Source of the DNA: Thermostichus lividus PCC 6715
GTDB lineage: Bacteria > Cyanobacteriota > Cyanobacteriia > Thermosynechococcales > Thermosynechococcaceae
Assembly (NCBI RefSeq): GCF_002754935.1
Contig: NZ_CP018092.1
Location: forward strand, 1,116,001-1,180,000
DNA length: 64,000 nt
Reading direction: 5' to 3'
The translations under genes and the position numbers were made by a program. Of the stretch, positions 45,334 to 47,832 are shown in pieces (within the stretch, counting starts at the first letter, position 1; each line of letters starts with the position of its first letter). The notes under the pieces are model-generated. The model did no database searches. It saw nothing but the letters and a program-made list of their open reading frames with translations, and was not told the DNA's origin.

Positions 45334-46530
45334 ATGTTGAGCGACGTCAGTGAAATAAACGATGCGATCGCCCCCCATGGGGGTATCTTGGTGAATCGAA
45401 TTCTGTCCCCTGAACAAAAGCAGTACTGGCGCGATCGCGCCGATCAGCTACCGCGCGTGCGCCTTGACGAGCGAGCCGTGTCCGACTTAGAACTTATTGC
45501 CATTGGCGGCTTTAGCCCCTTGACAGGGTTTATGGGACAGGCGGACTACGAGCGGGTAGTTACGGAGATGTACCTAGAGAACGGCCTACCGTGGTCAATT
45601 CCCATTACCCTCTCTGTTACTGCTGAGGTCGCCGCGCCCCTAGAGCTGGGTCAGACCATCCGCCTTGACAACGCCGCCGGTGAGTTTCTTGGTATTCTCG
45701 AGCTGACCGAAAAATATACCTACGACAAACGCCACGAAGCCCGCTGTGTCTATCGTACAGAAGACGACAAGCATCCGGGTGTCAACGTTGTCTATCAACA
45801 GGGAGAGGTGAATTTAGCCGGCCCCATTTGGCTCTTGGAGCGGCACCCTCACCCGCAATTTCCGAGTTACTGTATCGATCCGGTGGAGTCCCGCGCCCTG
45901 TTCCGCAGCAAAGGCTGGCGCACCATTGTGGGATTCCAAACCCGTAACCCCATTCACCGCGCCCACGAATACATCCAAAAATGCGCCCTAGAAATCGTCG
46001 ATGGCCTATTTCTGCATCCCCTTGTCGGCGCAACGAAGGAAGATGACATCCCAGCGGACGTACGGATGCGCTGTTATGAAATTATGCTAGAGCACTACTA
46101 TCCTCGGGATCGGGTCATTTTAGCCATTAACCCGGCTGCCATGCGTTATGCTGGCCCGCGGGAAGCGATTTTCCATGCCCTTGTTCGTAAAAATTACGGC
46201 TGTACTCACTTTATTGTGGGGCGCGACCATGCGGGGGTAGGGGACTACTATGGCACCTACGATGCCCAGCACATCTTTGATGAATTTGATCCGGCAGCTC
46301 TTGGCATTGTCCCCTTAAAATTTGAGCACGCCTTCTACTGCACCCGCACCCAGTCTATGGCCACAAGCAAAACCAGTCCTAGTAAACCAGAGGAGCGGAT
46401 CCATCTGTCTGGCACTAAAGTGCGAGAAATGTTACGCCGGGGTGAACTGCCGCCTCCAGAATTTTCTCGCCCTGAGGTGGCTGCTGAACTGGCTCGGGCA
46501 ATGCGACAACCGCACCTGAGCGCTCTGTGA
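45334..46530 (+). CDS. sat: Sulfate adenylyltransferase (ATP sulfurylase)
   Basis: Sat activates sulfate with ATP to form APS, the first step of sulfate assimilation. The 398-residue product has [16 protein letters not shown], with the catalytic QxRN and HxxH motifs. [13 protein letters not shown] carries the second nucleotide motif and [17 protein letters not shown] lies at the C-terminus. The ATG at 45334 is supported by AAGGAG at 45323-45328. No APS-kinase domain is fused. A strong hairpin follows about 55 bp after the stop. Confidence 0.97.
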
Positions 46531-46584
46531 TCTAGCACAGGGGGTGGGGGACACTGCCTCCGTCTCTGACATTAGCAAAACGAG

Positions 46585-46612
46585 GGGGTCACGTTGACGG
46601 CAACCTGACCCC
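46585..46612 (+). terminator. Long hairpin downstream of sat
   Basis: GGGGTCA at 46585-46591 pairs with TGACCCC at 46606-46612, continued inside by GTTG/CAAC across one mismatch. No U-run follows, so it may be a 3'-end stabiliser instead of a terminator. The rest of 46531-46870 contains no gene I can support. Confidence 0.5.
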
Positions 46613-46870
46613 TACAGCTGTTAGCAACGATAGTTTTTACTCAACAACTAGTGTGGACAAAATGTGGCTTTTTGTAACAACTCAGACCCCTCTTCGCATC
46701 TTAACCGATTAGGCTTGGAGTCGTGCACTCTTGGCTGTCTTTCAGCGTACTCTCTGTGTCAACGTTGACGGTACTTTAATGTGCTAGCAACTATTATTAA
46801 CTGAAAGTTAGCTAAGCTTGCCTTAACCTCCCTGTTTGCAACAACGTGGGGACTTCGACAACAGCCACTA

Positions 46871-47048
46871 AACGACAAGGCTGGACAAAGCATGAAAGGA
46901 AACAGTGATCGCGGACATGAACTACATGGGTTGAACACTACTTTCAAGACAGAACCCTCAAGATAGAGTTGAGGTATCTTGTAGTAGCCTTGCTTTGTCC
47001 CGAACCCAAGAGCGAGGCGGCACAAGCTCTAAGTTCACTCTTGTCGTT
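46871..47048. ncRNA. Candidate structured RNA, 6S-like size
   Basis: Five nested or branched stems are perfect or nearly so. AACGACAAG (46871-46879) pairs with CTTGTCGTT (47040-47048). GGACAAAGCA (46883-46892) pairs with TGCTTTGTCC (46991-47000). CTACT..CAAGA (46938-46949) pairs with TCTTG.AGTAG (46977-46987), CCTCAA (46956-46961) with TTGAGG (46969-46974), and AGAGC (47009-47013) with GCTCT (47026-47030). The whole is 178 nt in a 616-bp gene-free space. The length and closing stems would suit 6S RNA (about 185 nt in Synechococcus), but the usual neighbour purK is absent and the asymmetric bulges differ. Strand is not determined; promoters are unclear on both. Confidence 0.6.
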
Positions 47049-47146
47049 AACTTGTTATTTACTGTGCCTACTTTTAAGTTAGCATAGCCGTTTTAAATCT
47101 GCCAAACGTTAAGTTGAAATTAAATATCTGTTATATTCCTTAACCT

Positions 47147-47680
47147 ATGCTGCAACATGGTGTTAACCTGCTCTTTTACGGGCTATTGCTGGTATTATTA
47201 GGCGGCTGTTGGGGCGGTAGCTATCTATTACTCCCCACGGAACCTTTGGGTGGTGGCTTGAATTCCTTGGCACGCGAAGAATCACCACAGCTTTCCTATG
47301 ATGGCCGTTATCTCGTCTTTGTGAGCGATCGCCCCGGGTATCGTGCCATTTTTCTATTTGATGTAGCGCAGCGGCAACTGATCCCCTTGCCCGGCTTAAA
47401 CCGCCCGGGCATTGTCCAAGATCAACCAAGTATTAGTGGTGATGGTCGCTATATTGCGTTTCGCTCAGAAGCCCGCGGCAGGTCAGATATTGTGGTGTAC
47501 GATCGCCTGACGCGGCAGCAAGACATTATTACCGCCACATGGCAAGGAGAGGTACAATTTCCGGCAATTAGCGGTGATGGCCGCTTTGTGAGCTTCCAAT
47601 CTGACCGTAATGGCCAATGGAATATTGAAATTTATGATCGCGGTGTACGCTCTCCGCTACCTGTGGCACCGGATAATTGA
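47147..47680 (+). CDS. TolB-like lipoprotein with PD40 repeats
   Basis: The 177-residue product starts with a lipoprotein signal peptide ending LLLVLLGGC, where Cys21 would be lipidated. It is followed by three beta-propeller-like WD40/PD40 repeats (QLSYDGRYLVFVSDRPG, PSISGDGRYIAFRSEARG and AISGDGRFVSFQSDRNGQ). Proteins of this type are short TolB-like domains; a role in the envelope is likely but unspecified. It ends eight bases from the convergent 47-residue gene. Confidence 0.82.
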   Translation: MLQHGVNLLFYGLLLVLLGGCWGGSYLLLPTEPLGGGLNSLAREESPQLSYDGRYLVFVSDRPGYRAIFLFDVAQRQLIPLPGLNRPGIVQDQPSISGDGRYIAFRSEARGRSDIVVYDRLTRQQDIITATWQGEVQFPAISGDGRFVSFQSDRNGQWNIEIYDRGVRSPLPVAPDN

Positions 47681-47688
47681 GACATTAA

Positions 47689-47832
47689 CTAGCTTTTGCG
47701 GGGACGAGTTCCCGAAAAGGGTTGCACCCCAGTGGAGGGATAATGGTCATTGCGAGGGGTAAAGATCCGCCCAAAGGCTTCCATCAAGAACTCCATCATC
47801 CCCTGTAGTTTTTGTCGTAATGATTTCAACAT
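47689..47832 (-). CDS. 47-residue basic protein, unknown
   Basis: A short minus-strand gene begins with ATG at 47832 and ends at 47689. A ribosome-binding sequence, GGAG, lies about seven bases upstream on its strand. The product has an amphipathic N-terminal helix, LKSLRQKLQGMMEFLMEAFG, then RIFTPRNDHYPSTGVQPF and SGTRPRKS. The composition and the ordered helix-plus-loop pattern look coding. I do not recognise the family. Confidence 0.6.
   Translation of the reverse strand: MLKSLRQKLQGMMEFLMEAFGRIFTPRNDHYPSTGVQPFSGTRPRKS

Follow-up and report, generated by a model that had tools for sequence, protein, structure and literature searches.

A candidate stand-alone structured RNA gene of Thermostichus lividus with relatives in seven cyanobacterial families

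Introduction

Large bacterial RNAs that are constrained by structure are few, and most of those that are understood belong either to the core machinery of the cell (RNase P, tmRNA) or to unusual ribonucleoproteins. tmRNA, with its pseudoknots, is similar in length to the RNA considered here. OLE, GOLLD and ROOL are large stand-alone structured non-coding RNAs whose role is unknown or partly known, while PsrR1 is a base-pairing sRNA of ~130 nt. 6S RNA, an RNA polymerase mimic, forms a single long stem of ~180 nt with a large central bubble.

Here, we analyse a locus in a stretch of 64,000 nucleotides (the window; C1:1116001-1180000 of the one-contig, 2.66-Mb genome of T. lividus PCC 6715) in which an earlier note, made from the letters of the DNA, had marked a folded region of 178 nt between sat and a lipoprotein gene. 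Positions refer to the window unless prefixed C1; other genomes and loci carry our handles (G and L).

Results

Rfam 15 (4227 families) returned only a tRNA in the whole window; cmscan of positions 46500-47200 gave no match up to E 10, and the ten homolog loci gave none at E 1. In this genome, 6S RNA is encoded at C1:1493560-1493746 (80.8 bits), 330 kb from the locus, and RNase P RNA by rnpB at C1:865808-866171 (250.8 bits), and there is no match to the RNase P RNA model (RF00010) at the locus. We found no earlier description of the RNA in the open-access literature, although transcriptome supplements may hold one. As far as checked, the RNA is thus undescribed and claimed by no known RNA family.

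The complementary pairs named in the earlier note are found at 46871-47048 (Table 1), and its view that they exceed chance is borne out: the stretch out-folds 200 of 200 dinucleotide shuffles on both strands, with -56.4 kcal/mol (z -3.5) in the plus and -60.0 kcal/mol (z -4.1) in the minus reading. In the genus alignment, the conserved region extends well beyond this span, which corresponds to the 5' domain alone of a ~495-nt unit on the minus strand.

Table 1 Features of the candidate RNA gene and of the folded stretch within it (window positions)
Feature	Sequence	Position	Strand	Remark
Structured non-coding RNA gene (predicted)		46577..47069	minus	predicted 5' end ~47069, 3' end ~46577; conserved promoter and terminator, alifold, strand test
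Extended -10 promoter (putative)	TGCTAACTT	47076..47084	minus	pattern TGnTAnnnT; ~6 nt before the A of AGGCACA
5'-terminal strand of proposed pseudoknot	GGCACA	47063..47068	minus	kept in 11/13 divergent representatives
P2 hairpin	GAACUUAGAGC ... GCUCUUGGGUUC	47002..47036	minus	swap test
P2 hairpin loop	UUGUGCCGCCUC	47014..47025	minus	UGUGCC complementary to 5' strand
5' domain closed by P1	UUAACGACAAG / CCUUGUCGUU	46871..47050	minus	model R1; the feature of the earlier note
P4 helix and inner arm	GGGACAAAGC / GCUUUGUCC	46883..47001	minus	
P5 arm	GCUACUACAAGAUA / UGUCUUGAAAGUAGU	46937..46988	minus	helix 5, 97.4% paired
3' domain, helices 7-16	AGUGGCU / AGCCACA (closing)	46653..46870	minus	closing strands 46863-46869 / 46663-46669
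3' conserved motif	UUUUGUCCACACUAGUUG	46645..46662	minus	family pattern roughly UGUnnACCYYUAGU
Intrinsic terminator (predicted)	AGGGGUCAGGUUGCCGUCAACGUGACCCCCUCGUUUU	46577..46613	minus	terminator scan
Closing stem	AACGACAAG / CTTGTCGTT	46871-46879 / 47040-47048		
Inner pair	GGACAAAGC / GCTTTGTCC	46883-46891 / 46992-47000		
Alternative pair 1	CCTCAA / TTGAGG	46956-46961 / 46969-46974		
Alternative pair 2	AAGATA / TATCTT	46960-46965 / 46975-46980		

Homologs within the genus (11 genomes including that of the window) were searched with a 221-bp query, which matches all ten other genomes at the same locus; the RNA is single copy in 11 of 11 genomes, and sat lies on the same side of it in all ten relatives. 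Outside the genus the query gave nothing convincing; a 19-bp match in G021 is chance. The consensus fold (alifold) of the 513-column alignment reaches -204 kcal/mol in the minus and -193 kcal/mol in the plus reading, the former at z -7.7 against 40 column shuffles. Across the 127 named pairs, 96.4% of 1393 cells are paired and eight pairs are double-changed, compared with 2.8 in shuffles and with none of 500 shuffles as high. Sliding the partners by 1-3 columns lowers pairing to 30-44%, a control that favours the structure somewhat because the structure was taken from the same alignment. P1 (helix 2) and P4 (helix 4) are paired in 100% of cells, with two double-changed pairs in the former and one double change (UA/CG) in the latter, and the terminator hairpin (helix 18) shows one C-G/U-A double change within the genus. 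Co-changes in the alignment include GACAAAGC/GCTTTGTC to GATAAAGC/GCTTTATC and ACGACAAG/CTTGTCGT to ACGATAAG/CTTATCGT. Compensatory base changes, a mark of a stand-alone non-coding RNA gene, are thus present in related genomes, both in the genus and across families. The earlier note's proposal of a new structured RNA stands on this covariation and on the lack of an Rfam match; its extent of 178 nt does not, and it had left the strand unassigned. Among 94 pairs predicted from both strands, the minus reading shows 12 Watson-Crick-to-GU and only three Watson-Crick-to-AC alternations, and the minus strand is therefore likely the RNA strand. Within the 3' domain, a TGTCAACGTTGACG palindrome (~46756-46770) is invariant in 11 of 11 genomes and folds into a short hairpin in the consensus structure; it could alternatively be a DNA-binding site.

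Read on the minus strand, almost all 11 genus genomes have a TATGCTAACTT block ahead of AAAAGTAGGCACAG, with deviations at the end of the block in three, and a GGGGUC...GACCCC hairpin followed by CUCGUUUU closes the conserved region ~490 nt downstream in the window; no U-run was found after this hairpin on the plus strand. In the promoter pattern, the bases T, G, T, A and the last T are each kept at the same position in 13 of 14 divergent homologs (one T in 11); the transcription start site is a predicted one. Terminators in other families are different hairpins at the same end of the gene. The gene, which is convergent with sat and measures ~495 nt in the window and about 330-500 nt in relatives, thus appears to have its own promoter and terminator, conserved in sequence, as a stand-alone non-coding RNA gene would; its minus-strand transcript is predicted, as are both ends. 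In agreement with the absence of coding potential claimed earlier, the genus alignment holds no reading frame common to all members, and most indels that distinguish the window from G009 have lengths not divisible by three.

The 5' end of the RNA probably forms a pseudoknot in which GGCACA pairs with UGUGCC in the P2 loop. This pairing is possible in 13 divergent representatives, with small losses in G016, G307 and G341; GUGCC is present in the loop in 13 of 13, variants of the 5' strand are GGCGCA in G012 (giving a G.U pair) and AGCACA in G307, and the duplex energy of the loop with the 5' end ranges from -8.1 to -17.4 kcal/mol. Because its strands hardly vary, the pseudoknot is not provable by covariation. 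The predicted P2 hairpin, by comparison, is well supported by covariation: in a fixed-window swap test over 13 genera, arms with their own partners reach -13.26 kcal/mol on average versus -7.50 kcal/mol when swapped between species (p 5e-5), and control windows moved out of register give no such difference (p 0.10 and 0.68). In most homologs, the terminator follows a motif like UGUnnACCYYUAGU. A second long-range interaction, between the 5' end and this 3' motif (UAGG/CCUA), seemed persuasive on inspection as a would-be switch competing with the pseudoknot but was rejected: own and swapped energies are equal (p 0.35) and its ranks among own windows are ordinary. Nor does the switch read from the mutually exclusive CCTCAA/TTGAGG and AAGATA/TATCTT pairs hold up. 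These lie at the tip of P5 (46956-46974), which is missing in nine of the 11 genus genomes; because the segment is absent in nine of the ten same-genus relatives, the switch is not conserved.

Beyond the genus, we searched with three covariance models built on a narrow seed: R1 (5' domain), R2 (3' domain) and the short R3 (5' end and first hairpin). Within the family, R2 matched all 11 genus members and no other genus, and R1 matched G012 at 82 bits and, marginally, G016 and G019; these three were accepted by inspection on a shared 5' motif, a GUGCC-loop hairpin and a terminator at the right distance. R3 added G018 in the family and, in 388 genomes of the class, G171, G027, G276, G307, G341 and G377 (E 0.001-0.26), which were accepted by eye on features outside the model, namely promoter, terminator and 3' motif; R3 matches L124-L129, L131 and L133 and tandem matches in G327 were judged to be chance. 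A search by pattern (TAGGCACA, 26-55 nt, TTGTGCCKSC) gave matches in 19 genomes, compared with one when the pattern was reversed as a control, and brought in G136 and G045, again accepted by eye; its matches L140 and L141 look like coding sequence and were rejected. The carriers total 23 genomes in 13 genera and seven cyanobacterial families, and the inspected relatives have in common the promoter position, the 5' GGCACA, the P2 hairpin and a terminator. A BLAST search of plasmids found nothing. Because a permissive search of 40 representatives, mostly of other families, gave chance matches only, either the distribution appears patchy or the search models are overly narrow.

The genes next to the RNA vary with genus and family, and in this sense the gene is independent of its neighbours. 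sat is not adjacent outside the genus, and in G010 a TnpB-type insertion (L018 2797-3948) lies between it and the RNA; the lipoprotein gene adjoins the RNA within the genus in the window genome and G010 only, and again, divergently, in G012 and G016. By protein-sequence reading, other flanks are hemB (G018), lipA (G019), bcp (G027), a hemJ-like gene (G276), an LL-diaminopimelate aminotransferase gene (G136, G045) and polA (G341, G377). These changing neighbours speak against action in cis and in favour of an RNA that acts in trans. The sat and lipoprotein flanks of the earlier note are thus correct for the window and incidental to the RNA. The lipoprotein gene (47147-47680) encodes a PD40/WD40-like beta-propeller and has relatives in many cyanobacteria without an adjacent RNA. 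As a marker for the RNA it was rejected: among 36 loci, only the known one of Aphanocapsa sp. GSE-SYN-MK-11-07L, a carrier with the RNA beside the lipoprotein gene, has an adjacent RNA. Farther along, a 47-aa frame (47692-47832, minus) has 77-87% identity in the genus and no Pfam match, and is probably a real small protein.

Many homologs have an HLR1-like box (KTTACAWW-N2-KTTACAWW, reverse orientation) at about -57 to -40. It matches at 16 of 16 positions in G341 and at 14 of 16 in G276 and G377, whereas in Thermosynechococcus it is weak or displaced; best scores average 12.6 versus 10.4 +/- 0.24 in shuffles. A perfect 18-bp HLR1 (RpaB) box, AATGTAAAGTTTTGTAAC, is seen in L157, about 57 nt upstream of the G341 RNA start. 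In model strains, sites located between -66 and -45 have an activating effect (PMC13421787). These observations hint at light/redox control by RpaB through the upstream element, which we treat as a lead.

Discussion

Taken together, our comparisons favour a model in which positions 46577-~47069 of the minus strand encode a stand-alone, trans-acting structured RNA, and we hold this overall explanation to be very probable. About the presence of an RNA gene as such we have hardly any doubt, and we think it likely that its product works in trans. The RNA would be transcribed from the extended -10 promoter, and its 5' end would turn back to pair with the first hairpin's loop; the resulting pseudoknot would bury the 5' end and might thereby guard the RNA against 5'-dependent decay. 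Working in trans, the RNA would most probably serve either as the RNA component of a ribonucleoprotein or as a structured regulator. We put the chance of a ribonucleoprotein-type role at a little under even. As a weaker part of the model, RpaB might control the RNA by light and redox state through the HLR1-like element.

Reading the locus as 6S RNA draws on the length of the 178-nt span and its long closing stem. The distant 80.8-bit 6S gene, the lack of a 6S match at the locus up to E 10, and the length and multi-branched fold of the gene tell against this reading, which is already refuted by location and architecture and to which we give practically no weight. We give equally little to a mobile element, relic or active: the 178-nt piece does have perfect inverted ends, as terminal inverted repeats of a MITE-like element would, but the RNA is single copy per genome, keeps the same locus across the genus, and has a conserved promoter and terminator and compensatory changes.

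Its position between sat and the lipoprotein gene, and the recurrence of the latter as divergent neighbour in G012 and G016, would suit a cis element, that is, a plus-strand leader of the lipoprotein gene or an antisense or 3' element of sat. We consider this very improbable. The strand test favours the minus strand; the lipoprotein gene is not beside the RNA in nine of ten genus relatives; sat is no neighbour outside the genus and is parted from the RNA by the insertion in G010; and, with the terminator lying ahead of the sat stop codon, the transcript need not overlap sat. Somewhat less remote, and still improbable, is a precursor from which a small base-pairing sRNA is cut, or an mRNA for a short peptide. 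The length, the internal variable loops and a 31-codon frame in nine genus members speak for it, but neither the window nor G010 has that frame, most indels relative to G009 are out of frame, and structure is kept over nearly the whole length.

If the stand-alone, trans-acting RNA is real, it would fill a gap in what is known of cyanobacterial physiology, as it occurs, with a strictly placed promoter, in a genus on which much structural work on photosystems relies and in no fewer than six other cyanobacterial families. It is tempting to speculate, although we think it rather unlikely, that this RNA spread among cyanobacteria long ago, compares with RNase P RNA or tmRNA in size and, made under photosynthetic redox control (RpaB/HLR1), serves as the core of a new ribonucleoprotein.

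Among known systems, 6S RNA (RF00013; cyanobacterial ssaA) is likewise a structured RNA that stands alone in cyanobacteria and has a closing stem; it is, however, one long bulged hairpin, whereas the present RNA has ~495 nt and many helices in a branched fold, finds no match and is accompanied by a separate 6S gene. RNase P RNA (RF00010) resembles it in length, in containing a pseudoknot and in being single copy, but its model finds nothing at the locus and rnpB lies elsewhere in the genome. tmRNA, including the cyanobacterial form, differs in that neither the locus nor the ten homolog loci have an Rfam tmRNA match. With the PsrR1/SyR1 sRNA of Synechocystis, the RNA may share RpaB (HLR1) control, under which PsrR1 stands (PMC13421787); the SyR1 cluster is without a Thermosynechococcus member (Voss et al., PMC2662882). 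Finally, we note that although cmscan detects no homology to OLE, GOLLD and ROOL and the present RNA is so far confined to Cyanobacteria, it is like them in outline, being long, folded, encoded by its own gene and, by inference, trans-acting.
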